Source of the DNA: Magnetococcales bacterium
Lineage (GTDB): Bacteria > Pseudomonadota > Magnetococcia > Magnetococcales > JADFZT01
Assembly: GCA_015232395.1 (NCBI GenBank)
Contig: JADFZT010000019.1
Span: forward strand, 15,375 to 67,685
DNA length: 52,311 nt
Direction of reading: 5' to 3'
Below the pieces are notes generated by a model, which made no database searches, was not told the origin of the DNA, and worked only from the letters and a program-made list of their open reading frames with translations. This document shows, piece by piece, positions 15,036 to 52,311 of the stretch (its first letter is position 1; every line of letters starts with the position of its first letter). The position numbers and the translations under genes were made by a program.

Positions 15036-15063
15036 GTGTCCTGATTTTCAATGGCCGAAAATG

Positions 15064-15391: not shown

Positions 15392-15463
15392 ATGAAAAGC
15401 AGGACACTTGTCCCCGGGCCCGGGCTACCGGACCACTGGATGAGGTGGGACAGTTACCTCTGA
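15392..15463 (+). CDS. Possible 23-residue leader peptide upstream of rsgA
   Basis: A short frame ATG AAA AGC AGG..., encoding MKSRTLVPGPGLPDHWMRWD and three further residues, begins seven bases after AAGGAG, a better ribosome binding site than rsgA itself has. A TATATT at 15351-15356 could be its -10 element. There is no family match I know of, and the peptide may be chance. Low confidence. Confidence 0.25.
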   Translation: MKSRTLVPGPGLPDHWMRWDSYL

Positions 15464-15548
15464 CTGGTTTTTCCGGTCTGCCCGGCTTGATGAGCTGGGC
15501 TTCTTTCCTGGAAGCCCGATCTTTTATTCCTGATCGAGGTTTCAGACC

Positions 15549-16604: not shown

Positions 16605-16680
16605 CCATTTGGGGTTGGGCAGAAAAAGCCTGAGAGAGTTTTGTTTGGGCTCCTTCCCCTGGAAAAAATGCGGCAAGATG

Positions 16681-16710
16681 AAACGGCTCCCTTGGGGGCC
16701 GTTTTTTTTC
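16681..16710 (+). terminator. Rho-independent terminator after rsgA
   Basis: Stem AAACGGCTCCC / GGGGCCGTTT (one bulge) with a short TTG loop and a run of eight T. Lies 76 bases past rsgA. Confidence 0.85.
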
Positions 16711-16858
16711 TTCATTCCAGTTCAGAAGAGCACGCACGTTTGGCCCTGACAGGCCATTTCCAGGAGGAACCAGCGTAGGATACGGTAAGGCCGCCCGAAC
16801 CGCATCTATCCGGATGTTGATCTTGACTTTATTCCCACGGGTGCAGGGTAATTATTAC

Positions 16859-17060
16859 CCTGCCGGGTGTGGGCAGCGCCCACGGTTTGTCTTTTGATCT
16901 TGTCTTACATATCCAGCGGGTTTGGGGCGCAGCCCCAAGGTCTTATCTTTTGCTCTTGTCTTACCATATCCAGCGGGTTTGGGGCGCAGCCCCAAGGTCT
17001 TATCTTTTGCTCTTGTCTTACCATATCCAGCGGGTTTGGGGCGCAGCCCCAAGGTCTTGA
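16859..17060. repeat. 57-bp tandem repeat with internal palindrome
   Basis: Three copies starting with ccagcgggtttggggc begin at 16913, 16970 and 17027, exactly 57 bases apart and almost identical. A more diverged fourth copy precedes them from about 16859. Each unit contains TTGGGGC-GCA-GCCCCAA, a strong hairpin. The unit length is a multiple of three, so a minus-strand frame reads a 19-residue repeat across it; I do not believe this is a gene. It lies between rsgA and the convergent chemotaxis gene. Confidence 0.92.
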
Positions 17061-17175
17061 TTTTGTTTTTCGCCTTTTCATCAAAGCGACCATGATGTGC
17101 CATATTGGTTTAGAATAACGATATAAAACAAAGTGCCATCAAAAACGGGGCAAAACACCGAAATCAGTCCAGACC

Positions 17176-17228
17176 AAAAAAAAGTCGAGACCTGAAGGAG
17201 ATTCCCCTCCAAGTCCCGACTTTTTTTG
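17176..17228 (-). terminator. Terminator for the leftward chemotaxis operon
   Basis: An A-run, GTCG...GGAG, a short loop, CTCC...CGAC, then a T-run. Reading leftwards this is an extended hairpin followed by U-rich RNA, 42 bases beyond the stop of the leftward gene. It is symmetrical enough to work from both sides. Confidence 0.8.
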
Positions 17229-17269
17229 ATTTCCATCCGGGGAAGAGGATCCCCCGGGAAGGAGAGAGC

Positions 17270-18988
17270 CTAGAATAGTTCGATATCCAGGTCGTCGTCC
17301 TCACCGTTTTCAACATTCAGAGCGGCATCATGGACCCGCCGTTCGCTGGCCATGGTGTAGAGGCTTGCCAGATCATCGAACTCCGATGCCAGGGCGGTAA
17401 TGTCGGTGTCGAGACTCTTGAAGAGTTTTTCTCCGGCTTCAAATTCCAACACCTCCTCCAGAACCCGATCAGATCGGTCACAAATACGCTTGATGACTTT
17501 TTGGAACGTCATCTCTGCGGCAAGCAGCATGATTTGGTTGAAGGTGGCGTGGGTATCGCCAAACGTTTCATTGAGTTGATCCAGCACGTCGCTGTTGCCG
17601 GTATCCATCTGCCGGGTGGTGAGCGGGATGCGCCGAAGCATGGAGTTGGTTCGCATCAGCTGGGGGGTCACCTGGCCTGCATAGTCGGTGCTGATCTCCT
17701 GAATTTGATCAGACATGGTGTTGATGGTCTGATTTTTTTCTTTGGTTTCAGTCTGGATACGCTGAGCCAGCATGGTGATGCTTTCCGCCAGGGTGCGAAG
17801 ACGCTCATTGCCCTGGGTATCCATGGTGTCGGACAGCTTTTCCAATCGTTCCGTGGTCATTCTCAGCATATCCATGGCCCGACGGGTCTGAAACAGGCTG
17901 TTTTCGGCCTGGGAAAAGGTGCGCAATACCTCGGAGGAGAGCCCTTCGTCGAAGATGGGCAGGCGTAGCAGGGCAGTGAGGTGATAGGTGACGTTGTCGT
18001 TATCCTGATGGAAAGTCATGCTGGCGCTACGGGCTTGGGAGATGTCCGATTTTTGGGCATCGGTCTCGCCGCTGATCAGGTCGAGGTTTTCGGTCAGGGA
18101 GTCAACGGCTTTGACCAGGTCGGCGCTGATCTCTTTCAGTTGATTGATGGTGAGTTGGGTGGCGATGGCAAACCAGCGCTTCCGGTTTTTTTTGTCCGTT
18201 CCACCGGGTTCCAGTTTTTGAGCAGCCTGACTGAGAATTTCCACCACGTGGCCGATACGCTGGGCGGTGATGTCGTCATACTGCATGGAGCCCACCATTT
18301 CGAACACCAGGGTGTTCACAGTGTCGGTGTGGGCTTCCATTTGGCCGCACGCCTTGTCCATCCCCTTGACCGACTGTTCCATCTGTTTGAAGGTGGTGGT
18401 GATGGTTTTTTTCAGGGCCATCAAACCGTGCTGGGAGGTGTCCAGGTCGGTGGAGAGGCGACGGACCAGATGATTCATGACATTGCCTCCCTCCTGGCTG
18501 GAGGTGACGATCTCCCGGAGCAGCAGGCGTACCTGGCGCATGAGGTTGTCGATTATGGCCCCCAGGGATTGCCGCTCCACCTTTTGACCCCCCTTGGCTC
18601 GAATCTGATCCACCATGGCGGGGAGAAAGGCATCCTGCTCCAGGGGCAGAGCCCAGGCGGTGATCTCCTCCATACGGCTGATAAACTGACTGTTGCTTTC
18701 GGTCAGTTTGTCGATGGATTCGAAGACACCGTTGATGGCCTTTTGAATGTCCTGGAAATCTTTGCGTACGGGAGCCAGGCTCAGACCACCGTTGTCAGCA
18801 GCGATGCGTTCCCGGATGGAGGCGGCCCGGCTGGCGCTGGCGGCAAAGGCCGCTGAAAAATTGCCCATGTGATCGGCCACGTTCATGAACCCGGCCTTGC
18901 TCAGGTCAGGAACCTGCTCCAGGGCGGTGATCTGCTGTTGGAGGCGGTTGATGGATTCTTCTGTGGACGAGGTGATATCCGAACTCAT
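17270..18988 (-). CDS. Soluble coiled-coil chemotaxis protein with CheZ-like motif and acidic C-terminal tail
   Basis: 572 residues, almost entirely helical, with no membrane segment and no classical receptor hairpin tip. Near residues 236-243 it reads QYDDITAQ, followed by RIGHVVEIL. CheZ phosphatases carry Q-D-L-T-G-Q at their active site, with the Asp and the Gln four residues later essential; here Asp239 and Gln243 have that spacing. The protein ends in GEDDDLDIELF, comparable to the acidic CheY-binding tail of CheZ (DDLL-x-SLGF). The start at 18988 is chosen for GGGAG eight bases upstream; the frame is open to 19036. It is downstream of cheD in the same direction. A CheY-P phosphatase or sink role is inference; it may be a receptor-like scaffold. 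Confidence 0.7.
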   Translation of the reverse strand: MSSDITSSTEESINRLQQQITALEQVPDLSKAGFMNVADHMGNFSAAFAASASRAASIRERIAADNGGLSLAPVRKDFQDIQKAINGVFESIDKLTESNSQFISRMEEITAWALPLEQDAFLPAMVDQIRAKGGQKVERQSLGAIIDNLMRQVRLLLREIVTSSQEGGNVMNHLVRRLSTDLDTSQHGLMALKKTITTTFKQMEQSVKGMDKACGQMEAHTDTVNTLVFEMVGSMQYDDITAQRIGHVVEILSQAAQKLEPGGTDKKNRKRWFAIATQLTINQLKEISADLVKAVDSLTENLDLISGETDAQKSDISQARSASMTFHQDNDNVTYHLTALLRLPIFDEGLSSEVLRTFSQAENSLFQTRRAMDMLRMTTERLEKLSDTMDTQGNERLRTLAESITMLAQRIQTETKEKNQTINTMSDQIQEISTDYAGQVTPQLMRTNSMLRRIPLTTRQMDTGNSDVLDQLNETFGDTHATFNQIMLLAAEMTFQKVIKRICDRSDRVLEEVLEFEAGEKLFKSLDTDITALASEFDDLASLYTMASERRVHDAALNVENGEDDDLDIELF

Positions 18989-19110
18989 GGATGATTCTCC
19001 CGAAATTGAGTAGGGCGCAATCTGTTTTGGATGCATGAACAGGGGTGGTTTTGCTCCAATGCCCCTGATCCGATTGTTTGTCTTGGTGCTTTTCTGGTTG
19101 TCTCTCCTCC

Positions 19111-19143
19111 TTTTCCAAGTAAACGCTGCTTGGGCTTGGAAAA
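19111..19143. repeat. 9-bp perfect inverted repeat between cheD and the coiled-coil gene
   Basis: TTTTCCAAG at 19111-19119 pairs with CTTGGAAAA at 19135-19143. There is no T-run after it in either reading direction, so it may be an operator or an mRNA hairpin rather than a terminator. Confidence 0.4.
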
Positions 19144-19194
19144 GGTTGCCCAGGGGGTGTTTCTGTCGGGTTGGGAGGAAATCCCCAACGCCAG

Positions 19195-19668
19195 TTAGCG
19201 TGGCTGGGCTTTTTTCATCATCACCGAGCCATCGGAGGTGATGAATAAAATTTTGCGGCTTGAGTCTCCCCCTACGTTAGAGGCGGTGACAGCGATTTTT
19301 TCTTTGGTGAGCAGTTCCTTGGCCACGGCAATGTTGCGTTCGCCCACTTTCAGCATGCCGTCGGAGGTTTTGAGTACCGCCCCCCCACCAAACACCTTGG
19401 CCTGGAGATTTGCCCTCTGGCAACCCATTCCCAATAACGCCTCAATCAGATTGGCGATGGCGATGTTGCCATACTTGGGGGAGGGGAGTCCTTCACCGTT
19501 CCAGTAGGGGAGTTTGTAGTGGTTCATGCCTCCCCGTTTCAGTCTATTGTCCCAAAGGCAGACGGCGATGCAGGAACCAAGCACCGTGGTGATGGCACTG
19601 TCTTCATCCTTGGCGTAGATCGCACCAGGAAGTAGAAAATGTTGGGTGTGATTGGGGGGGAGGGCCAT
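19195..19668 (-). CDS. cheD: Chemoreceptor glutamine deamidase CheD
   Basis: A 157-residue CheD, which deamidates receptor glutamines and in some bacteria is stimulated by or binds CheC/CheX-type proteins. The catalytic Cys33 is in TTVLGSCIAVCLWD and the His50 in RGGMNHYKLP, both family hallmarks, and GGGAVL follows further on. The start codon lies two bases after the stop of the kinase-like gene, so the two are translationally linked. Presence of both CheD and a CheX in one window is consistent with a CheC/CheD-style control loop (inference). Confidence 0.93.
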   Translation of the reverse strand: MALPPNHTQHFLLPGAIYAKDEDSAITTVLGSCIAVCLWDNRLKRGGMNHYKLPYWNGEGLPSPKYGNIAIANLIEALLGMGCQRANLQAKVFGGGAVLKTSDGMLKVGERNIAVAKELLTKEKIAVTASNVGGDSSRKILFITSDGSVMMKKAQPR

Positions 19669-19670
19669 GG

Positions 19671-20561
19671 TTAGAAAGCTTCGGAGGAATCGTCGTCATC
19701 GAAGAAAAATTCTCCCCCATCCACGGAAAAGGCATCCGCCTCGACATCCACTTCCACTTCGGAGATGGTGACACTGAAGATGGAGCCTCCTCCCTCGTTG
19801 TCCTCGACCTTGATGCTTCCTTCCAGGGTTTCCAGAAGTGCCTTGATAATGGTGAGTCCCAGTCCGTGACCTTTGAAGGATTTGCTGACGCCGGATTGTC
19901 CCTGACTGAATCGGTCGAAGAGGCGACCTGTTCGGGTGACATCCACACCAACGCCGGTATCGGCTACCGCCAGGCTCAACTCGCCGTCGGCGACGGTGGC
20001 TTTGATCTCGACGCTGCCGTCCTGGGTGTTGTATTCGATGGCATTGGCGACCAGATTGCTGGCGATCAGGTGGAGTTTTTCCCGGTCGGTCTTAAACTTT
20101 AGACCTTCCTCGGCGACCACGGTGCAGGTGAGGTTTTTTTCCGGAAGCAGATGCTCGAAGGAGTCTCTGACATCGTTGAGTACGGCGGGAATATCCACCA
20201 GGGAAAACTGCATTTCCGCTTCACCGGATTCCAGTTCGGCGGTGATGAAAATATTGCGCAGCTGATAGTCGAGGCTGAAGGATTCCTTGTAGATCATGGC
20301 GGAGATGGGACTCACCATGTCAAGGGTGGCGGAACCGCTGCGAAGTTGGTCGGCCAATCCCAGGATGGAGGTCAGGGGATTGTTGATTTCATTTTTAACC
20401 AGGGAGACGAATGTGGATTTGATTTTTTCGCTTTCCTGAAGCCTGCGATTCATCTCCTCCAGTTTTTTGGTGATCATCTGGACGTCGTGGAGGGCTTTCT
20501 TCGTGGTATCAAAACGCTTTTTCAGCTCAGCGATCAGTTCATCATCACTCATTGCTTCCAT
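19671..20561 (-). CDS. Histidine kinase-like protein lacking the phospho-accepting His
   Basis: 296 residues: N-terminal coiled coil about 1-50, a DHp-like helix about 50-115, a HATPase_c domain about 155-265, and an acidic tail FFFDDDDSSEAF. The ATPase looks complete: N box NLVANAIEYN, DTGVGV, GHGLGLTI. In the DHp helix, where kinases have H-E-x-x-x-P, this protein reads VKNEINNPLTSI, so Asn57 replaces His (codon AAT; one base from CAT). It therefore cannot autophosphorylate in the usual way, though it could phosphorylate or dephosphorylate another protein or act as an ATP-responsive regulator. GGGAG stands eight bases before the ATG. It overlaps nothing but sits two bases ahead of cheD. Confidence 0.85.
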   Translation of the reverse strand: MEAMSDDELIAELKKRFDTTKKALHDVQMITKKLEEMNRRLQESEKIKSTFVSLVKNEINNPLTSILGLADQLRSGSATLDMVSPISAMIYKESFSLDYQLRNIFITAELESGEAEMQFSLVDIPAVLNDVRDSFEHLLPEKNLTCTVVAEEGLKFKTDREKLHLIASNLVANAIEYNTQDGSVEIKATVADGELSLAVADTGVGVDVTRTGRLFDRFSQGQSGVSKSFKGHGLGLTIIKALLETLEGSIKVEDNEGGGSIFSVTISEVEVDVEADAFSVDGGEFFFDDDDSSEAF

Positions 20562-21990
<1,429 letters not shown>

Positions 21991-22021
21991 GGGATCCGTC
22001 AGGGAGTAGGGTTTGATCGGG

Positions 22022-22891
22022 ATGAAGGGCCATTTCAGGGAAGGAGAGGAAGCTGAATTTTCAGACCGGGATTTCGACCGGCTGAGCCGCTTCCTATACA
22101 AGCAGTGTGGCATTCAGCTGCCCCTCACCAAAAAATCCATGCTCTCCTCAAGGCTGCAAAAGCGGATTCGTCTGCTGGGGCTGCCCACTTTTACCGCCTA
22201 TGTGGATCGGGTGGTGGACCCCAAGATGGGGGATGAGGAGCTGATCCAGTTTTTGGATGCCGTGACCGCTACCAAAAGCGATTTTTTCCAGGATCCAGGC
22301 CAGTTCGAATATCTCACCCGGGATGTGGTGCCGGGATTGATTCAAACCAAAGGGGTGGGGGTGCGCCGTCCCCTGGTGGTTTGGAGCGTGGGGTGTGCCA
22401 CCGGAGAAGAGCCTTACACCCTGAGTATCGTGCTCAAGGAGTTTTCCGAGCAGGTGCCCGGGATCAACTTTAAAGGGCAGATTTTAGCCACCGATATCTC
22501 CGCCCGGGCTCTGGAAAAGGCTTCCACAGCTATCTACGAGATGGAGCGGGTGGCGGCTATTCCGCTGCCGATCAAGAAAAAATATCTCCTCAAAAGCAGA
22601 GACCCCCGCAAGCAGATGGTGCGTATCTCTCCCGATCTGCGGGCCATGGTGCGTTTTCGTCAGCTCAACCTGATGGATCCCCGTTTTGGCCTGCGGGAGC
22701 CCCTGGATGCGATTTTTTGCCGCAACGTCGTGATCTACTTCGATCAGCCTACCCAGGAGCGGGTGATCAACAAACTATGTCAACATTTGGCTCCTGGAGG
22801 TCATCTTTTTGTCGGCCAATCTGAAAAGCTCGATAAACTCCACACCCCCCTGGTCAAGGTCGCCCCCACCATCTATCGCCTGCCGGAATAA
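22022..22891 (+). CDS. cheR: Chemotaxis protein methyltransferase CheR (copy 2)
   Basis: 289 residues with SAM motif WSVGCATGEEPYTLSIVL, ILATDISARALEKA, and DAIFCRNVVIYF. The loop LLKSRDPRKQMVRI is as long as the E. coli CheR loop that contacts receptor pentapeptides, while copy 1 at 2189 is three to four residues shorter. That suggests copy 2 may be the tail-dependent enzyme, which fits the pentapeptide-like tails of the two receptors in block 1 (inference). The start is taken as the ATG at 22022; a TTG at 22013 is in frame. It forms an operon with cheB. Confidence 0.92.
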   Translation: MKGHFREGEEAEFSDRDFDRLSRFLYKQCGIQLPLTKKSMLSSRLQKRIRLLGLPTFTAYVDRVVDPKMGDEELIQFLDAVTATKSDFFQDPGQFEYLTRDVVPGLIQTKGVGVRRPLVVWSVGCATGEEPYTLSIVLKEFSEQVPGINFKGQILATDISARALEKASTAIYEMERVAAIPLPIKKKYLLKSRDPRKQMVRISPDLRAMVRFRQLNLMDPRFGLREPLDAIFCRNVVIYFDQPTQERVINKLCQHLAPGGHLFVGQSEKLDKLHTPLVKVAPTIYRLPE

Positions 22892-22949
22892 CCGTCTTAT
22901 CCCTCGCCAATCGTCGGTCAGCTTGTGTCGCTTTGTCGCTTTGTCGTTT

Positions 22950-23128
22950 TGTAGGGTGTGGTGAGCAACGCGAACCGCACCGCTCGAAAGTTGTCACACC
23001 TGTTTGAACCAGAGCCTCTATTCCTTGGGTTGGTTTTGAACTCGATGAGGTGATTGATGGGGGGAGTGATTTGGATGATGCGATGTGGTCTTGATCGATG
23101 CGGTTCGCGTTGCTCACCGCATCCTACA
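22950..23128. mobile_element. MITE-like element with about 30-bp inverted ends (179 bp)
   Basis: Left end 22950-22979 and right end 23099-23128 are inverted repeats matching at 28 of 30 bases, sharing GGTGAGCAACGCGAACCGCA exactly. Sequences of this GTAGGGTGYGGTGAGC type are dispersed repeats in many bacterial genomes. No transposase lies inside. It sits between convergent genes, where its hairpin could also help end transcription. Just left of it, gtcgctttgtcgctttgtcg is a short tandem repeat. Confidence 0.75.
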
Positions 23129-23218
23129 GGTTGCGTGGGTTGTGCAGGGGTTAAAAATTTGGGCGGAGCAGGGGGGGGAGAGCAGGTGTAAGGTGTAAAG
23201 TGTGAGGTGTGAGGCAGG

Positions 23219-24280
23219 TCAGAAGAGTTCGATATCCCCTTCGTCCAGGGAGTCTTGCCGTACCGGCCGGTTGATCGACTCATATTCGCTCTTGCGGTTT
23301 TCCAGGACATTTTGGATGGCAGCCAGGCGTTCTTCTTCTGTTGACAGAGAGGGGTCGTAAAAGCAGGAAAAAACCTCTTCTACCAAGCTGTGCATGATGT
23401 TCAGCTTGTTTTCCATGGCATGGGTTACCTGGGTGACCATATCCTCAAACTGCAGGGACATGACCGCCAGACCCACACTGTTGGTCAACTCTTCGGAGAT
23501 GGATGAGATGTCCTGGAGGCTTTGGGACATGACTTTGTTCATATTGCCGATCTCTTCCATCATGGCATCAATCTGACCCTTGGAGTCCACCGCAAAGTTC
23601 ATGTCCTTGGTGGCCATTTTTTGGATGAGATTTTTGATGGAGCCGAGTTTTTCCAGGGAGTGGTTGGCCACCCGGTCGATCCGTTCACCGAACTGTCCGG
23701 AATCCTTGGCGAGCTTTCGCACCTCCCCAGCCACCACCGCAAAGGCACGACCGGCGGTGCCAGCCCGGGCTGACACGATGTTGGCATTCAGCGCCAAGAC
23801 GTTGGTCTGTTCCGAGATCGATTTGATCTCCTGGAGCATGGTGGTGATATCGTGCATGTGGCCGGAAAGCTCGTCCACCTTGTAGACCATGTCCATGGTC
23901 TGCTTGGAGACGTGGAGGACGTAATCCATGAAATAGTGGAGAATCCGGTTGGTCTCATCCAAAAATTCCTGGATGTTGATGCGTTCTTTATCCTCCCCCT
24001 CGGTGGGGGCGGGAGGTGGAACGGGTTCGGCCTCTTCCTCCTCCGTTTCGCCCTCGTCGGGCTTGTTGGAGACGCTCGACTCCATGGAGGAGATGAGGAT
24101 ACCGACCTTGGCGCTCTGGTTTTGGGTTTGATCCCGCAGTCCGTTGAAGCTTTCGGTAAGCTTGATGATGGCGTCCTGGACCAGACCCCGGACCTGCTGG
24201 AGTTCCATGTCCAGGTCTTCTTTCTCGAATCGGATCTCGTCCCTGACCTGTGCGATCAGGTTTTCCATGGATTTATCCAT
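23219..24280 (-). CDS. Soluble receptor-like protein with MCP hairpin tip, CheZ-like motif and acidic tail
   Basis: 353 residues without a membrane segment. N-terminal coiled coil about 1-70, an acidic Pro-rich linker about 71-100, a receptor-type region with a hairpin tip [19 protein letters not shown] near 156-174 and [13 protein letters not shown], then [15 protein letters not shown] near 276-290. The last resembles the CheZ active-site pattern, with Asp280 and Gln284 four residues apart, as in the coiled-coil protein at 17270-18988. Both proteins end in DIELF. The tip departs from canonical receptors ([10 protein letters not shown] against [10 protein letters not shown]), so it may still couple to CheA/CheW. 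Function is inferred only; it could be a cytoplasmic receptor, a CheY-P phosphatase, or both. Confidence 0.75.
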
Positions 24281-42359: not shown

Positions 42360-45300
42360 ATGACCCTGCGGCATCGCTATACCTTGATTATCCTGGGACT
42401 GGTGATCTCTGCCACGTTGGTGGTAGCGGGGGCGCTCTTGATGCAGTTTCGGGAATCGATGCATCAGGTCACCACCCTGAGTGCCGATTCCGTGGCCCCC
42501 ATGCTCCGGGAGCAGTTGCGCCAGAGGGGGGAACTCCTGACCCGGGTTTTGGCCGATAATCTGGTCAATCCGGTTTATCAATACGACATGGAGACGGTAT
42601 CGGAGTTGATTGCTGCCGCCCGGGAGCGGGAAGATGTATTGGAGATTGTGCTCTATGACCCCCGGGGGCGTGTTGTTCATGATGGCCAGGCGGAGATTCC
42701 CTCCTATGGCAAAACCATCGACGACATCACTCCAGCCCTTTTGGCGCTTACCGATTTGAAGGTATTGGAAGAGCCGCAGAGGATGGTTTTTTTCATGCCT
42801 GTGCAATTGGCTGAGGAAAATCTGGGGGGGGTTCGGGTTGCTTTTTCCCTGGCACGCATTACAGGCCGGATCGACGCCATGCGAGAGGGGATCGGTGAGA
42901 TCAAAACCGCAGGCCTCAAGGGTAACCTCATCGCCATTGCGCTGATCACCCTGCTATTGACCGGGCTTGGCATCGTCATGGCGGTGTGGGTGGCCCGGGG
43001 TTTGAGCCGCCCCATCGGCAAGCTGGCCAAGCAGGCCGAAGCGTTGGGTCAGGGGGATCTGGAGACAGCCATCACCCTGGAACGGCAAGATGAGCTGGGG
43101 CAGCTGGCAGGGGCTCTGGATGTGATGCGCCGGGATTTGGGACATTCCTACCACGAAATTCAGCGGCAAAACGAGGAGTTGAAAGCCCTCGACCGGATGA
43201 AGGATGATTTTTTGGCCAATGTCACCCACGAGTTCAAGACCCCCCTGAACGGCATTCTGGGACTGGGGCGGGCCATGGGGGACGGGGCTTATGGGAAGGT
43301 GCCCCAGGCGCTTGATAAACCGATCACCCAGGTGGTTGATTCCGCAGATCGCCTGTTAAAACTGACCCTGCAAATTTTGGCCTTTTCACCGGCTGGTGCC
43401 TCCTCTGGCCGGATGGAAAAGATTTCCATTCGGGGGTGGCTGGCTCATTTTCTGGAAACGTTTGAATACCAGGCCCGGGAAAAACAGATCTCTCTGCAAT
43501 ATCAGGCCCCGGAAAATTTAACCCTGCACACCGATCCGGATCAGCTGGAAACGATCCTCATGAACCTGGTGGGCAATGCCGTCAAGTTTACCCATCGGGG
43601 TTTGGTGCGGGTTCAAGCCCAGGCTCTGGGAGAGGTGGGGGTGGCTCTCTCTGTGGCGGATACCGGTATCGGTATTCCCAAGGAACTCCACGACAAGGTG
43701 TTTGATCGCTTTCAGCAGGGGTTTGAATCCGAACGACGCCTTTATGAAGGTTCCGGATTGGGGTTGGCCATCATGAAACGGGCGGTGGGGGTGCTCCAGG
43801 GGGCAGTGCATCTGGAAAGCGTTCCCAAGCGGGGTTCCACCTTTACCGTTCTTTTGCCTGTGGGAGAGGGGGTGGCCAAAGAGGATCTGCTGGCTCTCTG
43901 GCCGCCAAAGCCGGGGATGCCCACTCCAGTGGAGGGGCCGATCTCTCTGGTGGCGGGGCCGATGGTGCTCAAAGAGGCGGCCATCCTTCAGCCTGGGGAG
44001 TTGTCTGGAGATTCTCCCGACACTGAGGCTGCCAGTGCCGACCCATTGGCTTTGGAAGGGGATCCAGCTTTGGCATCGGCTTCTTCAGAACCTTCCAATC
44101 CAAGTATTCACCCCCCCTCGACGTTGCTGGAGATCTCCCCGGAGGAGGAGGTGGATTGGAAACCCCTCTATACCATCCTGGTGGTGGATGACGATCCCAT
44201 CAACCGGGAGGTGGTGCGGGCCAATCTGGGGCGGGATTTTCATGTGGCTGAGGCGGCTACGGGAGCAGAAGGTCTGGAAAAAATTCGCGCTCGTCCCTAC
44301 GACCTGATTTTGTTGGATCTGATGATGCCGGGGCTTTCGGGGTATGATGTCTTGAACGCCTGGAAAAAGGAGCAGGCGACCCACCGGATTCCACCGGTGA
44401 TCGTGCTTTCGGCCAAGGATCAGATTCCGGCCATCACCCGGGCGTTTGAGTTGGGGGCGGTGGATTATGTCTCCAAACCCTTCCATCGGGAGGAGCTGAG
44501 GGCTCGGATTTACGCCCATGTGCAGCTGCGGCAAAATGCCATGGAGATCATGGAGCGCAAGCTGGCCGAATCCCGCTTGCGGGCGGAAAAAGCCATTGCC
44601 GAGGCTGCGGACAGCGCCAAGAGCGAATTTTTGGCCAACATGAGCCATGAAATTCGCACCCCCATGAATGCCGTCATCGGCCTGACCGATCTGGCTCTGC
44701 AAGCGGAGATTTCTCCCAAGGGACGGGACTATCTCACCAAGATCGCCCATGCGTCTCACTCTCTGCTGAGAATTTTGAACGACATACTCGATTTTTCCAA
44801 GATCGAAGCGGGGCGTTTGGAGTTGGAGCAGAGCGATTTTTATCTCCGGGATGTTTTTGATCACCTGGCGGATCTTTTTCGTAATCAGGCGGCTGAACAG
44901 GGGGTTGAGTTGATCCTGAGCCTTTCCGATGCGTGTCGTTATCGGATCACCGGGGATCAGCTGCGCCTGGAGCAGGTTTTGATCAACCTCACCGCCAACG
45001 CCCTCAAATTTACCGAAGCGGGTGAGGTGGAGTTGGGGGTGACCACGGTGATGGCCTCGGAGGAGGGGGTGCTGCTGGCCTTTTTCGTTCGGGATACCGG
45101 TATGGGCATGAGCCGGGAGCAGATGGAAAAGCTCTTCTCTCCTTTTACCCAGGCGGACGCTTCCACCACCCGTAAATTTGGTGGTACTGGTCTGGGTTTG
45201 GCCATCTGCAAACGGCTGGTGGAGATGATGGGGGGGCGTATCCAGGCGGAGAGCGTGCCCCGGGAGGGGAGTATTTTTAACTTTACCGCCCATTTTGCCC

Positions 45301-46886
45301 GCCAGGTGGCGGGGGAAGGGCCGCATCTGACGCCACCTGAGGATTTTGCTCCCCTCAACGTCCTGGTGGTGGATCGCAATCCCGCCACCCGCAAGGTGTT
45401 GGTGGAGATGTTGGGGGCGTTGACTTTTTCGGCCCACGGGGTGGATTCCACCGAGGCCGCTTTGGCTGCACTCAGGCGTGAGGAGGAATCCCCCTATCAA
45501 TTGGCCATGGTGGATTGGTTCATGTCCGATGGTGATGGCATTGAGACCGCCTTGGCTTTGCAATCCCTCTTTTCCAAAGGTGGATTGTCGGGACAAGCCC
45601 CTCGGGTGGTGCTGATGCTGCCAGCCCATCGGGAGGGGGAGATCCGCCATCTGGCCCTGGAGTCGGGTTTTTCCCAGGCTCTGGTCAAACCGGTCAACTG
45701 TTCCATTTTGTTCGACACCATCATGGAGACTTTTGGTCGTCAGCTGACCAAGCTCTACCGGTCGGGAGAGAAGGGGGTGGATGGCGCGGGGGTGACTGAG
45801 CGGGTAGGGGGGGCTCGGGTGTTGTTGGTGGAGGACAATCCCATCAATCAGCAGGTGGCCAGGGAGGTGCTGGAAAATATCGGCCTGGAGGTGGAGCTGG
45901 CGGAAAATGGTCTGGAAGCGGTTCAGATGGTGGGGATGGAAGCGTATGATCTGGTGTTGATGGATATTCAGATGCCTCAGATGGACGGCTATGCCGCCAC
46001 TCGGAAAATTCGGGAAAATCCCAAGCGTCGGAATCTGCCCATCATCGCCATGACCGCCCACGCCATGCACCGGGATCGGGAAAAGAGCCTGGCGGCTGGA
46101 ATGGACGCCCACATTGCCAAACCCATCGATAGAAAAGAGCTTTACGGGACGCTGATGACCTGGATCGAGCCGGGGGAGCGGGAGATTAAAAAAAGAGCGG
46201 GTGATTCCTTCAGCGGCCTGGGGATTGAACAACAGGTGCCGGAGGATCTGGTGGGGGTGGATGTGCCTGCCGCTCTCAACCGGTTGGGGGGCAACCACCA
46301 TCTTTTTCGTTCCCTGCTCTACGAATTCCAACGGGATTTTGCCAACTCCGCCGAACAGGTCCGGGATTGCCTGAGGGGGCGTCGTCAGGATGACCTGCTG
46401 CGGGGGGCCAATCTGGTGCATGCGGTCAAGGGGTTGGCGGGCAATCTGTCCGCTACGGATCTTTTCCTGGCGGCCCAGGCTTTGGAGGTATCTATTCGGG
46501 AAGAGCGCCACGAAACCTGGCCTGGGCTGCTGGCTGATTTTGACATGGGGCTTTCAGCTGTGATCAAGGGGATTGGTCGCATGCAGGAGGCCCAGGCCAA
46601 GCAGGCCGATGAGGCGCGGCAAGCCTTCGAAGGCAAGGGGCGGATGGATCGGCAGAAGGTGGCTGATTTAATGGCAGCGTTGTTGGATGCTTTGGAAGAG
46701 GCCCGTTTGGATGCCCAGACTGTTTTTGGTCGTTTAAAACCCCTCCTGGCAGGGGTTCCTGATGAGACGAAAGGGTTGATTGCTGAGCTTGAGGCCTGCA
46801 TATTCCGTTTGGATTTTGGCAAAGGGCGGGATCTGCTTTTGCAACTGGCAGAAGCGTTGGAGATCACCCTGACGGGAGAAGGGTGA
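42360..46886 (+). CDS. Giant hybrid sensor histidine kinase with two kinase modules
   Basis: 1508 residues. TM1 about 8-28, periplasmic sensor about 29-190, TM2 about 191-213, HAMP about 214-266, first kinase (NVTHEFKTPLNG, His290; ATPase with VADTGIGI, GSGLGLAI), REC1 about 600-720 (LILLDLMMPG, Asp653), second kinase (NMSHEIRTPMNA, His763; GGTGLGLAI), REC2 about 1000-1120, REC3 about 1155-1275 (LVLMDIQMPQMDG), and a C-terminal Hpt domain with NLVHAVKGLAGNLS. REC2 lacks a normal acidic pair (VVDRNP) and reads MVDWFMSDGDG, so it may be degenerate. The layout allows a phosphorelay with two input kinases. The upstream PhnD-like gene probably shares its promoter. Confidence 0.93.
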   Translation: MTLRHRYTLIILGLVISATLVVAGALLMQFRESMHQVTTLSADSVAPMLREQLRQRGELLTRVLADNLVNPVYQYDMETVSELIAAAREREDVLEIVLYDPRGRVVHDGQAEIPSYGKTIDDITPALLALTDLKVLEEPQRMVFFMPVQLAEENLGGVRVAFSLARITGRIDAMREGIGEIKTAGLKGNLIAIALITLLLTGLGIVMAVWVARGLSRPIGKLAKQAEALGQGDLETAITLERQDELGQLAGALDVMRRDLGHSYHEIQRQNEELKALDRMKDDFLANVTHEFKTPLNGILGLGRAMGDGAYGKVPQALDKPITQVVDSADRLLKLTLQILAFSPAGASSGRMEKISIRGWLAHFLETFEYQAREKQISLQYQAPENLTLHTDPDQLETILMNLVGNAVKFTHRGLVRVQAQALGEVGVALSVADTGIGIPKELHDKVFDRFQQGFESERRLYEGSGLGLAIMKRAVGVLQGAVHLESVPKRGSTFTVLLPVGEGVAKEDLLALWPPKPGMPTPVEGPISLVAGPMVLKEAAILQPGELSGDSPDTEAASADPLALEGDPALASASSEPSNPSIHPPSTLLEISPEEEVDWKPLYTILVVDDDPINREVVRANLGRDFHVAEAATGAEGLEKIRARPYDLILLDLMMPGLSGYDVLNAWKKEQATHRIPPVIVLSAKDQIPAITRAFELGAVDYVSKPFHREELRARIYAHVQLRQNAMEIMERKLAESRLRAEKAIAEAADSAKSEFLANMSHEIRTPMNAVIGLTDLALQAEISPKGRDYLTKIAHASHSLLRILNDILDFSKIEAGRLELEQSDFYLRDVFDHLADLFRNQAAEQGVELILSLSDACRYRITGDQLRLEQVLINLTANALKFTEAGEVELGVTTVMASEEGVLLAFFVRDTGMGMSREQMEKLFSPFTQADASTTRKFGGTGLGLAICKRLVEMMGGRIQAESVPREGSIFNFTAHFARQVAGEGPHLTPPEDFAPLNVLVVDRNPATRKVLVEMLGALTFSAHGVDSTEAALAALRREEESPYQLAMVDWFMSDGDGIETALALQSLFSKGGLSGQAPRVVLMLPAHREGEIRHLALESGFSQALVKPVNCSILFDTIMETFGRQLTKLYRSGEKGVDGAGVTERVGGARVLLVEDNPINQQVAREVLENIGLEVELAENGLEAVQMVGMEAYDLVLMDIQMPQMDGYAATRKIRENPKRRNLPIIAMTAHAMHRDREKSLAAGMDAHIAKPIDRKELYGTLMTWIEPGEREIKKRAGDSFSGLGIEQQVPEDLVGVDVPAALNRLGGNHHLFRSLLYEFQRDFANSAEQVRDCLRGRRQDDLLRGANLVHAVKGLAGNLSATDLFLAAQALEVSIREERHETWPGLLADFDMGLSAVIKGIGRMQEAQAKQADEARQAFEGKGRMDRQKVADLMAALLDALEEARLDAQTVFGRLKPLLAGVPDETKGLIAELEACIFRLDFGKGRDLLLQLAEALEITLTGEG

Positions 46887-47073: not shown

Positions 47074-47685
47074 ATGACAGGAAAACAGCGTTTGGCCGAG
47101 TTTCTTTTAAACCCGGAAAAATATTGGAATTTGCTCCTCTCTCCGCTTCGGGCCCGGCTACTCTGGCTTTATGATGTGCAAATGGGGCCGGGAGTGGGGG
47201 TGATCGGCAAGCCTCTGATCATCAACCGGGGAGCGGGGATTCGCCTGGGGATGGGGGTGCGGCTCTATTCAGCCCAATCCAACCACGAAATAGCTCTCCC
47301 TTCCCGGGTGGTGTTGACCACCCGGGGGGAGGGGCGCATCGAAATAGGTGACCATGCCATGATCAACGGCTCCACCATCCGCAGCTTTCACCGGGTGACA
47401 GTGGGCAAGAATGTCTGGATATCCAGCAACTGCACCATCATGGATTCCCACGGCCACGCCCTGGATCCCGATACCCGGCTGAACAAGCCCGACGAGCATG
47501 GTGAGGGAGCCCCTGTCACCATTGAGGATAATGTCTGGATGGGGATCGACTGCAAGGTGCTGCCAGGGGTGGTGATCGGTAAAAATTCTGTCATCAGCCT
47601 GGGCAGTATGGTCACCCAAAATATTCCCCCCAACTCCCTGGCCGCAGGTGTTCCGGCCAAGGTGATCTCCAAGTTGACGATATAG
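47074..47685 (+). CDS. Hexapeptide-repeat (LbH) acyltransferase
   Basis: 203 residues. Left-handed beta-helix pattern: IGKPLIINRGAGIRLG, IEIGDHAMINGSTIRSFHRVTVGKNVWISSNCTIMDSHGH, VTIEDNVWMGIDCKVLPGVVIGKNSVISLGSMVTQNIPPNSLAAGVPAKVI. This is typical of O-acetyltransferases or serine acetyltransferase-like enzymes acting on sugars. The frame is open from 46975, but that part is the mobile element; I choose the ATG at 47074. The catalytic His is likely in MDSHGH. It is two bases ahead of the E1 gene. Confidence 0.88.
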   Translation: MTGKQRLAEFLLNPEKYWNLLLSPLRARLLWLYDVQMGPGVGVIGKPLIINRGAGIRLGMGVRLYSAQSNHEIALPSRVVLTTRGEGRIEIGDHAMINGSTIRSFHRVTVGKNVWISSNCTIMDSHGHALDPDTRLNKPDEHGEGAPVTIEDNVWMGIDCKVLPGVVIGKNSVISLGSMVTQNIPPNSLAAGVPAKVISKLTI

Positions 47686-47687
47686 CC

Positions 47688-49766
47688 ATGGGTCATACCA
47701 GCGATAGGCGAGACACGCCCCCTGAAAATTCCCCGGAGAGACCCGCCAGGGAGGGATCCTCTCTCCCAGCTGGAGAGGGTGCTGGCCAAAAGAATGCACC
47801 CTGGGATGAGGCTTTCCCCAAGGGTGTGTTCACGGATGGTCAATTCATTCGCACCGTGGAGCAATCCTTTCTGGATCTTTTTTCTCAGGGGCGGTTGTCG
47901 GGCACGGTGCACACCTGTGTGGGGCAGGAGCTTTCGGCCCTGGCCTTTGCCGGGCAGCTTGAGGCGGGGGATTTTATCTTTTCCAACCATCGCTGCCACG
48001 GCCACTTTTTGGCTTTCGACAACAACATCGCCAAGGGCCACCATCGGGGCCTGATGGCGGAGATCATGGGGCTTGGCGAGGGGGTGTGTGGTGGGGTTTC
48101 CGGCAGCCAGCACCTCTGCTGGAACCGGTTTTTTTCCAACGGCATTCAAGGGGGGATCGTTCCCGTTGCGGCGGGTCACGCCCTGGCGGAAAAGCTCTCT
48201 GATAAAGCGCACATCGGCATTGTCTTCATCGGTGACGGCACCTTGGGGGAGGGGGTGGTTTATGAAACCCTCAACCTGATCGCAAAATGGTCGATCCCGC
48301 TGCTCATCGTCTGCGAAAACAACCGCTACGCCCAATCCACCCCCACCGAGAGCGCTTTGGCCGGGGATATCGTCGCCCGGGCTCAAGCTTTCGGTATTGA
48401 GAGCTGGTCCGGGAGTACGGAACAGCCGGAAGCGCTTTTTGCCTCGGCACGACAGGCCATCGATCATGTCCGCAGTCAGGGCCAACCCGCCTTCCATCTG
48501 GTGGAGACCTATCGTTTGGTCCCCCACTCCAAAGGCGACGACAACCGGGATCCCCGGGAGATCGCCCGTTTTGCCGAGCGGGATCCCCTGACCCTGTGGA
48601 GCCGGGAAGAACCAGAGGCCGCTGGGGAGGCTCGGGAGGCTGCAGACCGGGCGGTAGCCCAGACGCTGGCTGGGCTCGAACAAGCCCAACCCATGACCAT
48701 AGCCGACTATTTTCCGATACCTCCCCAGCCGGAGCCCATCCAGTGGCGTGAATTGGTTTTTGATTCCGATCTCAAGGGGAAGCGCCTGGTCAAACTGCTG
48801 AATCGGTTTTTGGCGGAGGAGATGGGGCGTAACCAAGATCTCGTGCTTTTGGGGGAGGATATTCGTTCTCCCTATGGCGGGGCTTTCAAGGTGACTCTGG
48901 GGCTGTCGGATCAATACCCCGACCGGGTGTTTGGCTCCCCCATCAGCGAGGCGGGGTTGGCTGGTGTTGCCAATGGTCTGGCACTCGCAGGCAAACGCCC
49001 GGTGCTTGAGATCATGTTTGGGGATTTTATCATCCTGGCCTTGGACCAGATCATCAACCACGCCTCCAAGTTTCACCACATGTACAACCGGCAAGTCACC
49101 TGCCCGGTGGTGATTCGCACCCCCATGGGGGGAGGTCGGGGCTATGGTCCCACCCATTCCCAAACGTTGGATAAATTTTTGATCGGTATCGACAACGTAT
49201 CGGTGGTGGCGTTGAACCGTCTTTTTGATCCGGGGGAGATCTACGAAGGGGTGATGGCTCAGGCGCATCCGGTGATCGTGATCGAAAACAAGCGGGATTA
49301 TGCCTTGCCGGTGCTGAGGGAGCGTCAGGATCATTGGCGTTATTTACGCAGTGGCGGTGATTTTCCCTGGGCGCGCATCACCCCGGCCCTCTCCAAACCG
49401 GATGTAACGGTGGTCACCTATGGGGGGATGGTGGCCGGGGTGCTGGAGCTGCTGGAGCCGCTTTTTTTGGATCATGAACAGCTCCTGGAGGTGATTGTTC
49501 CCAGCCGGATTCATCCCCTGGATATCACCCCCATTCTGCAATCGGTGGAGGAGACGGGGGCGCTTGTGGTGGTGGAAGAGGGCACCCTGTTTGCCGGGCT
49601 GGGGGCGGAGATCATCGCCCGGGTGGCGGAGGAGATCCAACGCCCCTTCCGGGCCAAGCGAATCGGGGCGTTGCCAGCACCCATTCCAGCCGCCCGCTCC
49701 CTGGAAGAGGAGGTGTTACCCAGCCATGATGCCATTCTCCGGACCATTGGGGAGTGGCTGACATGA
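47688..49766 (+). CDS. 2-oxoacid dehydrogenase E1, fused alpha and beta subunits
   Basis: 692 residues. A disordered N-terminus (about 1-45), then an E1-alpha module: HTCVGQELSALAFA, FSNHRCHGHFLA, TPP-binding GDGTLGEGVVYETLNLIAKW...ENNRYAQSTP. From about 365 an E1-beta module: FLAEEMGRNQDLVLLGEDI, GSPISEAGLAGVANGLALAGKRPVLEIMFGDF, TPMGGGRGYGPTHSQ. It resembles acetoin/branched-chain/pyruvate-type E1 enzymes, which decarboxylate a 2-oxoacid and pass the acyl group to lipoyl-E2. The acid used cannot be read from the sequence. The start codon follows the acyltransferase stop by two bases, and its stop overlaps the E2 start (ATGA). Confidence 0.92.
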   Translation: MGHTSDRRDTPPENSPERPAREGSSLPAGEGAGQKNAPWDEAFPKGVFTDGQFIRTVEQSFLDLFSQGRLSGTVHTCVGQELSALAFAGQLEAGDFIFSNHRCHGHFLAFDNNIAKGHHRGLMAEIMGLGEGVCGGVSGSQHLCWNRFFSNGIQGGIVPVAAGHALAEKLSDKAHIGIVFIGDGTLGEGVVYETLNLIAKWSIPLLIVCENNRYAQSTPTESALAGDIVARAQAFGIESWSGSTEQPEALFASARQAIDHVRSQGQPAFHLVETYRLVPHSKGDDNRDPREIARFAERDPLTLWSREEPEAAGEAREAADRAVAQTLAGLEQAQPMTIADYFPIPPQPEPIQWRELVFDSDLKGKRLVKLLNRFLAEEMGRNQDLVLLGEDIRSPYGGAFKVTLGLSDQYPDRVFGSPISEAGLAGVANGLALAGKRPVLEIMFGDFIILALDQIINHASKFHHMYNRQVTCPVVIRTPMGGGRGYGPTHSQTLDKFLIGIDNVSVVALNRLFDPGEIYEGVMAQAHPVIVIENKRDYALPVLRERQDHWRYLRSGGDFPWARITPALSKPDVTVVTYGGMVAGVLELLEPLFLDHEQLLEVIVPSRIHPLDITPILQSVEETGALVVVEEGTLFAGLGAEIIARVAEEIQRPFRAKRIGALPAPIPAARSLEEEVLPSHDAILRTIGEWLT

Positions 49767-51208
49767 GTGCGGATGACCTTCTCGAAATCCTGCGGGTTCC
49801 CCAGGAAGGGGCCAACGACGAATTTGTGGTGGTGGTGGAGCTACCGGTGGCCCATGGCAGCCGGGTTGAAGTGGGAGAGTTGATCGCCGAGATCGAAACC
49901 TCCAAGGCGGTGGTGGAGGTGGTGGCCGGGGAGGCGGGTCATCTGGCGCTTCTCTGCCATCTGGAAGATCAACTCCCCATTGGCCGGGAGATCGCCCGGA
50001 TTCAGCGTGGACCGGTCACCACTCCCCAGGGGCCACTGGCTGAGGGGGATGCTGCCATTGGGGAGCCTCAAGGGCCACTGGCATCACCTATGGTCTCCTC
50101 TGGGGCTGCTACGGCTTCGGCTGTCTCCTCAGCTCCGGCTCCGGCTGTTTCTCCCCCCAAACCGACCACTCCCCCCCTTGCAGCGGATATCCGTGATCTG
50201 GAACCGGTTTTTTCCCGGGAGGCGGTGGGGTTGATCCAGGAAACCGGCTTGGCTCGGGACACCTTCAAGGGGCGGGATTTTGTTCGGGTCCACGATGTCC
50301 GGCTGGCTGCAGGCCTGGTCCCTGCCACATCAGCAGCTTCCACACACACACCTGTTAGGGGCGCCACACCCGCTACCGAACTGTCGCCAGCTCCACCCGT
50401 CGGCGTGACGGTCAAACCACTCACCGCCACCAAGCAGGCGGAGATACGCCACCTGGAGCAGGTCCAGTCAGCCGGCCTCAACAGCCAGGTCCACACCCTG
50501 GTGGATCCCAAAGGGTGCCTGGCGATGATGGCCCGGGAGCTTTCGGTCTACGCCAACACCATCGCCCCGGAGGTGATTCGACTGTTGCCGGCGTTGCTGG
50601 GGGAATTTCCGGAGTTCAACGCCCGTTTCCTGGGAGGGCAAGAGGGGATCGGCTTTCATGATCAGGTGCAGGTGGGGCTCGCCCTCAACCTGGAAGATGG
50701 CCTGAAAGTGGTCGGGGTGCCGGGGGAGGCGATGGCTACTCTTCAGGGAATTGAAGGGGCGCTTTTTGAGCTTGTCGAAAAATATATGCAGCGCAAGCTC
50801 AAGCCTGCTGACATGAATGGCATCACCTTTACCCTGACTGATCTTTCCATGAGCGGGGTGTTTTTGTTCAATCCCCTGATCGGTGCCCAGCAGTCGGCGA
50901 TCTTGGGGATTTCCAGCCTGGACGATGGGCTGGGGCGGTTGGTGCTCTCCCTCACTTTTGATCACCGGGTGGCGGATGGCAAACGGGCGGCAGAATTTCT
51001 CGGCGCATTGAAAGAGCGGATCGAGGCGTTCAATGGGGAGGTTTTCACCGGCCAAGCCCCTGCCAGCGAGACGATGGCGATTCATTGTCACCGATGTCAC
51101 AGGAGCCTTCGGGATGAAAAGCGGGATGGTGGGGTGGGACTCTTGCAGGTGGTGACCCCGGATGGTTCGGCCAAACATCTCTGCCGTTTGTGTCTGGAAG
51201 GGTGGTAG
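49763..51208 (+). CDS. 2-oxoacid dehydrogenase E2 acyltransferase with C-terminal zinc ribbon
   Basis: 481 residues. Lipoyl domain with IAEIETSKAVVEVV (Lys48 lipoylated), an Ala/Pro linker, an E3-binding domain FSREAVGLIQETGLARDTFKGRDFVRVHDV about 150-180, a second Ala/Thr/Pro linker, and a catalytic domain with FDHRVADG near His401. The unusual addition is a C-terminal tail with CHRCHRSL about 442-449 and CRLCLEGW at the end, a zinc-ribbon-like pair of Cys motifs not usual in E2. No E3 (dihydrolipoamide dehydrogenase) gene is in the window. The ATG at 49763 overlaps the E1 stop. Confidence 0.92.
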   Translation: MSADDLLEILRVPQEGANDEFVVVVELPVAHGSRVEVGELIAEIETSKAVVEVVAGEAGHLALLCHLEDQLPIGREIARIQRGPVTTPQGPLAEGDAAIGEPQGPLASPMVSSGAATASAVSSAPAPAVSPPKPTTPPLAADIRDLEPVFSREAVGLIQETGLARDTFKGRDFVRVHDVRLAAGLVPATSAASTHTPVRGATPATELSPAPPVGVTVKPLTATKQAEIRHLEQVQSAGLNSQVHTLVDPKGCLAMMARELSVYANTIAPEVIRLLPALLGEFPEFNARFLGGQEGIGFHDQVQVGLALNLEDGLKVVGVPGEAMATLQGIEGALFELVEKYMQRKLKPADMNGITFTLTDLSMSGVFLFNPLIGAQQSAILGISSLDDGLGRLVLSLTFDHRVADGKRAAEFLGALKERIEAFNGEVFTGQAPASETMAIHCHRCHRSLRDEKRDGGVGLLQVVTPDGSAKHLCRLCLEGW

Positions 51209-51217
51209 GAGGGGGCC

Positions 51218-52018
51218 ATGGGAAATCATCCAGAGCAGGTTCAACAGCTGAAAGCCATTCTATCCGCCTTTACCGGTCTTTCCGAGCAGGAGATCGATGA
51301 AGGGAGCCCGGCCAATCGCCAGGCCATCGGTGCCTCCTCCATTCGCTACCACCAATTTTTGGCAGCGGTGGGAGGGGTGGTGCCGGTTTCCCTCGGGGAG
51401 TGGAAGGGGGTGGAGACTTTTGGGGATTTGTTGCGGGTGGCGGGGCTTCAGGAAGGGGGGGGCGTTCCAGCGGGCAGAGCGGATGAGGCTTTGGCTGACT
51501 TGCCTGATGATAAATTTACCTCCCGGCAGCACTTTTCCGGTGCGACTCCGCCGACGCTGATCCCCCGTGAGTCGGGTGGCCCATCTGCTCCCTTGGGAGA
51601 GGTGGTGGTGGGGATCGATCTGGAAGAGCTGGATCGGTTTGGCCGGGTGGATGATTATGGCTCGGACCCTTTTTATAAAGACAACTTTACCCCTGAAGAG
51701 ATGGCCTATTGCCAGCAACAGCCCGATCCCATCGCCTCCTTTGCGGGACGGTTTGCGGTGAAGGAGGCCTTGGTCAAAGCGGACAACGGATTGGGTCAAA
51801 CCCCCTTCAACCAGATCGGCATTTCGGTGGATGGGGAGGGACGGCCCACCTATCCCGGCTTTTCGATCTCCCTCTCCCACTCGGAAAAGAGCGCGGTGGG
51901 GGTGGCGGTAAAAGTGGTCGGGGGGAGCGCTGAAGCTCAATCCACAGGTGGGAAAACGCCCCTGATCCTGTCGGTTGCTGCCCTGGTGATTTCCCTTTTG
52001 GCCCTTTGGGGGGGATGA
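51218..52018 (+). CDS. ACP-like domain fused to a holo-ACP synthase (AcpS-type), with tail anchor
   Basis: 266 residues. Residues 1-80 look like an acyl-carrier domain: QVQQLKAILSAFTGLSEQEIDEG, then GASSIRYHQF where carriers have D-S-L; the Ser is present but the Asp is not, and VETFGDLLRVAG is the ACP helix IV. After a linker, residues about 128-230 are AcpS-like: VVGIDLEELDRFGRV, FTPEEMAYC, ASFAGRFAVKEALVKA, and FSISLSHSEKSAVGVAV. The last 20 residues (PLILSVAALVISLLALWGG) form a membrane helix. GGAGG stands five bases before the ATG. A carrier and its modifying enzyme on one membrane-anchored polypeptide is unusual. Confidence 0.85.
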   Translation: MGNHPEQVQQLKAILSAFTGLSEQEIDEGSPANRQAIGASSIRYHQFLAAVGGVVPVSLGEWKGVETFGDLLRVAGLQEGGGVPAGRADEALADLPDDKFTSRQHFSGATPPTLIPRESGGPSAPLGEVVVGIDLEELDRFGRVDDYGSDPFYKDNFTPEEMAYCQQQPDPIASFAGRFAVKEALVKADNGLGQTPFNQIGISVDGEGRPTYPGFSISLSHSEKSAVGVAVKVVGGSAEAQSTGGKTPLILSVAALVISLLALWGG

Positions 52019-52311
52019 TTCCGATCCTGGATTGAATCGACGTTCATCCCTGTTGGGTGGGATTGGTTTTTTTCTCTCATCTCTTGAGCAATATGCCCCT
52101 GATCGAACAGGCATGCTGATACAGTCATTCACATCAAGAATTGGACGTATGCCGTTGCACTTTTTTCGTCATTCCCGCGAATGCGGGAATCCAGGGCGTC
52201 TGGCACGAAACTTTCCAAATATTATTTCATTTTCAGCAAAATACCGGCCTTGCTGAAGATTTGGTTTTTCTTTGAGGGCAATCATCAGCTCCCTGACTCG
52301 TCATCCCCACA
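52019..52311. other. End-of-window intergenic region with a dispersed palindrome
   Basis: About 290 bases with no supported gene. A perfect hairpin ATTCCCGC-GAAT-GCGGGAAT at 52171-52190 belongs to a REP-like CATTCCCGCGAATGCGGG family common in proteobacteria. I saw no obvious terminator after the ACP/AcpS gene. Confidence 0.6.
52171..52190. repeat. REP-like palindrome
   Basis: Eight-base perfect inverted repeat (ATTCCCGC / GCGGGAAT) with a GAAT loop, followed by ccagg, the usual form of a dispersed extragenic palindrome. Only one clear copy in the window. Confidence 0.65.

Follow-up and report, generated by a model that had tools for sequence, protein, structure and literature searches.

The 3′ end of the window, a 52,311 nt stretch of a Magnetococcales bacterium (contig JADFZT010000019.1, positions 15,375 to 67,685), holds four genes arranged head to tail. 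These encode a hexapeptide acyltransferase, a single-chain E1 alpha-beta component of the 2-oxoacid dehydrogenase type, an E2 acyltransferase, and a fusion of an acyl carrier protein (ACP) with an AcpS domain (ACP.AcpS). The operon is probably a dedicated acyl-supply line for glycan modification, in which an acyl group made by E1/E2 would pass to the ACP, then to the hexapeptide enzyme and finally to a sugar. A preliminary description of this DNA had proposed such a relay, ending on a surface sugar or another target, and this reading accounts best for the comparative evidence, with moderate confidence. Direct support exists for the domain composition, the catalytic motifs, the predicted ACP fold, the co-conservation and the location in glycan clusters. 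The operon is kept in glycan clusters, only one related group lacks the carrier serine, and sister E1 proteins have as partner a fusion of a lipoyl domain with a PglD-like acyltransferase. The genes and their domains are as follows.

47074..47685 (alternative start 46975), + strand: hexapeptide acyltransferase gene (left-handed beta-helix, WbbJ/LacA-like; Pfam Hexapep 4.8e-10)
47688..49766, + strand: E1 alpha-beta single-chain 2-oxoacid dehydrogenase/transketolase-like gene, 692 aa (Pfam)
49763..51208 (GTG alternative start 49754), + strand: E2 acyltransferase gene with lipoyl domain, catalytic core and zinc-ribbon tail (Pfam)
49790..50002, + strand: lipoyl domain of E2 (Pfam, residues 13–83)
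51086..51193, + strand: zinc ribbon CHRC...CRLC at the E2 C-terminus (motif comparison of E2s)
51218..52018, + strand: ACP–AcpS–transmembrane helix fusion gene (Pfam ACPS 2.6e-12; AlphaFold2 model, pLDDT 82)
51218..51457, + strand: ACP domain (AlphaFold2 domain model, pLDDT 87; Foldseek PDB matches)
51338..51340, + strand: codon of Ser41, predicted phosphopantetheine attachment site at the N-terminus of helix II (alignment and model)
51599..51919, + strand: AcpS domain with catalytic Asp134, Glu183 and Lys187 (Pfam PF01648, alignment, Foldseek)
51956..52012, + strand: likely C-terminal transmembrane helix, residues 247–265 (AlphaFold2 helix, pLDDT 84–87)

On re-reading, the gene junctions are as first reported: a 2 bp gap between the hexapeptide and E1 genes (47686–47687), an ATGA overlap between E1 and E2 (ATG at 49763, TGA at 49764–49766) and a 9 bp gap between E2 and ACP.AcpS (51209–51217), with Pfam and NCBIfam agreeing on the domains. 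The earlier feature list named all four genes and overlooked the C-terminal transmembrane helix of the fusion and the zinc ribbon of E2.

The N-terminal region of the fusion was not recognized by Pfam. Modelled alone, it folds as a four-helix bundle, and in a model of the whole fusion built from 21 sequences this ACP-like bundle is followed by an AcpS fold and the C-terminal helix. Nearly all listed Foldseek matches of the isolated domain in the PDB, including the top ones, are acyl carrier proteins (probability 0.99–1.00, TM mostly 0.6–0.7, no E-value below 0.001). By its predicted fold this domain is thus an ACP, as had been suspected from the letters; Ser41 opens helix II, the position that bears the phosphopantetheine arm in ACPs. 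Ser41 is invariant in an alignment of 17 ACP sequences (A3) and, as counted by the alignment tool, conserved at ≥90 % in a second alignment of 22 sequences (A1). The AcpS active site is likewise retained in A1 (Asp134 invariant, Glu183 and Lys187 ≥90 %), and the best Foldseek matches of this domain are AcpS and the phosphopantetheinyl transferase domain of fungal fatty acid synthase. By eye, about 15 of 21 full-length homologues in A1 have a hydrophobic C-terminal tail, and the modelled helix 247–265 is likely a transmembrane segment.

E2 is recognizable by its lipoyl and catalytic domains (Biotin_lipoyl 5.8e-8, 2-oxoacid_dh 2.9e-30), and both the lipoyl-lysine motif EIETSKA and the core motif FDHRVADG are present. 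Its core is divergent, scoring 2e-30 against PF00198 versus about 1e-80 for ordinary E2s. A C-terminal CxxC...CxxC zinc ribbon occurs in all 23 E2s that adjoin an ACP.AcpS gene (the L005 row of this comparison being the E2 of genome G015) and is absent from all four complete E2s that do not (L035, L038, L039 and L041), in whose genomes no ACP.AcpS fusion was found anywhere. On the E1 tree, ribbon and fusion change together on 4/4 independent pairs. This strict pairing points to direct contact between E2 and the carrier, for which the ribbon would serve as the docking element.

The E1 chain combines E1_dh (9e-40), Transket_pyr (8.5e-26) and Transketolase_C (9.7e-18) domains in Pfam. Its thiamine diphosphate (ThDP) motif GDG..NN and the active-site histidine motifs RLVPHSKGD and GPTHSQ are all intact; GSQHL...NGIQGG-like and RLxxHSKGD motifs are common to the E1 family. 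Both E1 and E2 score far under the curated NCBIfam cut-offs for the pyruvate dehydrogenase (PDH), OGDH and acetoin dehydrogenase models. The hexapeptide enzyme has hexapeptide repeats in Pfam and is LacA/WbbJ-like in NCBIfam, under the equivalog cut-offs, and its presumed active-site residue His161 (numbered from 46975) is invariant in 10 homologues.

An E1-based scan of 84,980 species genomes yielded 80 loci. Counting the window, its paralogue and G015, an ACP.AcpS gene lies beside E2 in 23 loci from several phyla, answering the call for a search of other genomes; all but the paralogue also lie beside E1, and about 13 have the exact order hexapeptide-E1-E2-ACP.AcpS. The 23 loci come from Bacteroidota, Planctomycetota, Acidobacteriota, Verrucomicrobiota, Ignavibacteriota, Chlorobiota, Myxococcota/Thermodesulfobacteriota, Alphaproteobacteria and the window's own order; beyond Bacteroidota, Myxococcota/Thermodesulfobacteriota and the window genome, it is variants of the set that occur in several more phyla. 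Conservation of the set in other phyla rules out chance adjacency. Within the window's own phylum the fusion set is confined to G000 (two copies) and G015 among 299 genomes, and in Bacteroidota it was present in 2/296 genomes, both previously known carriers. Cultured carriers of the operon include Pinibacter aurantiacus and Pollutibacter soli. A search of a plasmid collection returned AcpS-domain matches only. The rare and patchy distribution suggests horizontal spread of the operon.

Most ACP.AcpS loci are situated within glycosyltransferase or surface-sugar gene clusters. The 102 flanking proteins include at least 19 GT1/GT4 and 8 GT2 glycosyltransferases, 9 nucleoside diphosphate (NDP)-sugar epimerases/GDP-mannose dehydratases and 4 CpsB/CapC proteins, counts that are approximate as the simple gene caller gave shadow open reading frames in high-GC loci (L133, L032). 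Additionally, Wzy- and Wzx-like proteins are encoded near the operon in single loci.

All ACP.AcpS loci fall into one 37-row clade (SH-aLRT 99) of the 77-row E1 tree. In most rows outside it, from Chloroflexota, Actinomycetota, Bacillota and SAR324, the second protein joins a lipoyl domain to a hexapeptide acyltransferase that is often of the PglD type. The same pairing is nested inside the clade at L019, L036 and L045. In many phyla these fusion genes directly follow E1, whose alpha and beta parts are fused or split; nine lipoyl-PglD/left-handed beta-helix fusions were checked by Pfam and about 20 more by pattern. The nine lipoyl-hexapeptide fusions are located as follows.

L019:5916-6980
L036:12016-13185
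L045:11890-12975
L062:9362-10408
L083:2421-3581
L090:1059-2336
L050:7857-8903
L060:11921-13480
L095:3124-4596

Such a fusion looks like an enzyme for direct acyl transfer from lipoyl arm to sugar. The L019 E1, nearest to that of the window (57 % identical), adjoins PglF-, PglE- and PglD-type genes, and L045 adjoins NeuB. Other members of the E1 family keep different company: a discrete ACP, GNAT and FemAB at L035, a C-PCP-KS-AT (condensation/PCP/ketosynthase) megasynthase at L041, an MBOAT at L039 and FkbH in G015. The discrete ACP, the megasynthase and the MBOAT would be alternative acceptors for the same E1/E2. These varied pairings indicate that what the E1 family makes is delivered, time and again, to a carrier or an acyltransferase.

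In the proposed relay, E1 would decarboxylate a 2-oxoacid, or take a two-carbon unit from a ketose phosphate, and acylate the lipoyl arm of E2, as its intact motifs suggest. The E2 core, with the carrier possibly docked on its zinc-ribbon tail, would then load the acyl group onto the membrane-anchored ACP at its phosphopantetheine arm, instead of or besides free coenzyme A (CoA). This arm would be installed by the fused AcpS, in cis or between neighbouring copies. On the inner membrane face, the hexapeptide enzyme would move the acyl group from the carrier to a sugar linked to a nucleotide or lipid, at one of its amino or hydroxyl groups, and dihydrolipoamide would be reoxidized by the genome's Lpd or by an E3-like flavoprotein encoded in a paralogous cluster. 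Our inference covers the transfer direction, the kind of acyl group and its acceptor.

Several observations weigh against this relay. The ACP-like regions of three loci forming one E1 clade, from Acidobacteriaceae, Beijerinckia and Rhodobacteraceae, have no serine at the Ser41 position:

L047:13340-13978, ACP-like N-terminus without the carrier serine
L048:13076-13852, ACP-like N-terminus without the carrier serine
L053:13094-13786, ACP-like N-terminus without the carrier serine

The carrier step would therefore be absent or replaced there, and a pattern search near these three loci and L056 found no discrete ACP. At L039, E1 and E2 are followed by an MBOAT gene without any carrier, and E2-to-CoA transfer is therefore possible in the family. 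The association of ribbon and fusion cannot reach p<0.05 by sign test, because there are only four independent pairs. In the window itself no glycosyltransferase was found beside the operon, the contig stopping downstream, and the upstream neighbours are a hybrid kinase and, farther away, a chemotaxis cluster.

FkbH-type proteins are glyceryl-carrier synthases in other systems. Such proteins are encoded beside the E1 operon at L133:3280-4971 and L095:2-1225, and in G015 an FkbH-type gene overlaps the E1 start codon, giving the order FkbH-E1-E2-ACP.AcpS; a 2-hydroxy-3-oxopropionate-reductase-like gene is found farther upstream in G015. This gene order, together with L039 and with acyl-CoA being the usual donor of hexapeptide acyltransferases, would suit an arrangement in which E2 acylates CoA, the hexapeptide enzyme uses the acyl-CoA, and ACP.AcpS carries another group, for example an FkbH-loaded glyceryl unit. 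We consider this unlikely, as only one ACP.AcpS locus adjoins FkbH and the strict pairing of ribbon E2 with ACP.AcpS points to direct contact. Direct loading of the carrier has also been proposed for the precedents (PMC6335953, PMC5384830).

The window genome encodes no other E1_dh protein of this kind, one further E2 core (in a paralogous cluster on contig C20), no ordinary E2, and three biotin/lipoyl domains in total; two weak PF00676 matches are probably transketolase/DXS-type enzymes. A true Lpd (GGTCLNEGCIPSK) is present. The operon is thus the sole 2-oxoacid dehydrogenase system of this type in the genome, the C20 E2 aside, and together with the Lpd this could fit a plain cellular dehydrogenase for pyruvate (or branched-chain 2-oxoacids) that produces acyl-CoA, with the ACP.AcpS and hexapeptide genes as passengers. 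Such a role is improbable. At least one ordinary, high-scoring E2 accompanies the divergent one in 12/13 other host genomes; hence the operon does not encode the usual pyruvate dehydrogenase, and a housekeeping PDH was set aside on this ground. The divergence of E2 and its zinc ribbon, the conservation of the ACP.AcpS link across phyla and the pairing of sister E1s with lipoyl-acyltransferase fusions argue likewise. It is very unlikely that the pathway product is a small molecule of the non-ribosomal peptide synthetase/polyketide synthase (NRPS/PKS) kind instead of a decorated polysaccharide: known E1/E2/ACP modules do serve NRPS products (PMC6335953, PMC5384830, PMC7570522) and L041 has its megasynthase, but L041, a relative without ACP.AcpS, is the only one that was seen with an NRPS/PKS, and the commonest neighbour families of ACP.AcpS operons include no NRPS or PKS, the neighbours being glycosyltransferases, NDP-sugar enzymes and Wzy-/Wzx-like proteins.

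The second cluster of the window genome is placed as follows.

L004:6950-12414 (contig C20:52949-58413): ribbon E2, ACP.AcpS, flavoprotein with an E3-like GGTCLHHGC motif of the CxxxxC form, and MBOAT

It has no E1, and its ACP.AcpS is without a membrane helix; the window's E1 may serve both E2s. In pairing E2-ACP.AcpS with an MBOAT protein this cluster resembles the DltA/DltC/DltB system of D-alanylation, in which a membrane acyltransferase receives the acyl group from a carrier. DltA works by ATP-dependent adenylation, whereas here charging would be by a 2-oxoacid dehydrogenase.

The operon shares the E1 ThDP motif and active-site histidines with the canonical 2-oxoacid (pyruvate) dehydrogenase complex and differs from it in the extra zinc ribbon of E2 and in the subunit-binding domain, which was not detected in E2 by Pfam, a method that could overlook a degenerate one. 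PglD/NeuD/WbbJ-type hexapeptide sugar acyltransferases have the fold and genomic setting of the final enzyme in the proposed relay. Known enzymes of this type take acyl-CoA, whereas LpxA and LpxD take acyl-ACP; the donor here is probably acyl-ACP, as for LpxA/LpxD, and in the sister loci would be a lipoyl domain of the same chain.

The closest precedents are carrier-charging PDH-like modules of NRPS pathways, NapB/NapC/NapD and QncN/QncL/QncM (also SclQ1-4 and DinS/T/U), in which a ketose phosphate supplies a two-carbon (glycolyl) unit that is finally bound to an ACP (PMC6335953, PMC7570522). E1 alpha, E1 beta, lipoyl and E2 domains are encoded together with an ACP, as in the window's operon; however, the ACP there stands alone with about 76 aa, E1 beta is joined to E2 in one chain (NapD/QncL), and the product goes to an NRPS, whereas ACP.AcpS operons are flanked mostly by glycan genes. 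The papers cited describe no ACP.AcpS fusion, membrane anchor or hexapeptide enzyme. For the pepteridine pathway of Photorhabdus, the proposal is that an E1 and an E2-T-C fusion prime the arm of a carrier domain instead of CoA, while the host lends its E3 (PMC5384830); that paper also cites the enzyme for branched-chain acyl-ACP from Craig and Brady 2011. The priming of a carrier arm by E1/E2 is as proposed for the window's operon; the pepteridine carrier differs in being fused to E2 and a condensation domain, and the acceptor in being a pterin.

The window's set would work like the Nap, Qnc and pepteridine modules, without being a member of them by context or architecture. The initial claim that no described system has this set holds for the open literature, in which targeted searches of 5.39 million papers found no description of the exact four genes (most subscription papers lie outside this coverage), and needs correction in that E1/E2 charging of carriers was already known from NRPS pathways. 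What is new is the membrane-anchored ACP.AcpS, the E2 ribbon and the glycan context; E1/E2 carrier charging is known from antibiotic pathways. Here the ACP chain brings along both an AcpS and a membrane anchor, and E2s that partner such an ACP share the zinc ribbon.

The common view is that acyl-CoA or fatty acyl-ACP supplies the acyl groups of capsules, O-antigens and amino sugars. The family suggests that, in many phyla, 2-oxoacids (or ketose phosphates) are turned into glycan acyl groups by a dedicated route with carrier-bound intermediates, and predicts glycan acyl substituents that have so far not been looked for. Whether this is a general means of bacterial glycan decoration, with the E1-made acyl group reaching hexapeptide or MBOAT enzymes via ACP.AcpS or a fused lipoyl domain, is in our estimate evenly balanced; if so, it would supply acyl groups not readily offered by CoA metabolism, such as glycolyl. 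The lipoyl-PglD fusions put the link between lipoyl arm and sugar acyltransferase into one chain, bring the idea within reach of a test with two purified proteins, and as the wider pattern may merit a study of their own.

The contig ends 293 bp past the last operon gene (position 52311). A weak terminator-like hairpin lies 3′ of the operon; with 9 such hairpins found versus 6.5 ± 2.5 expected, it is near chance level.

52043..52063, + strand: terminator-like hairpin (weak)

A palindromic intergenic repeat, CGTCATTCCCGCGAATGCGGGAATCCAG, is present at 52167–52194, shortly before the contig end, and may be the cause of the assembly break. On the 5′ side, a 1508-aa hybrid histidine kinase (identified by reading) occupies 42360–46886, ending 187 bp before 47074, and is preceded by a phosphonate-binding-like protein. 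The chemotaxis cluster at 5349–24280 encodes CheA, CheB, CheR and three methyl-accepting chemotaxis proteins, one of them with a nitrate/nitrite-sensing NIT domain.

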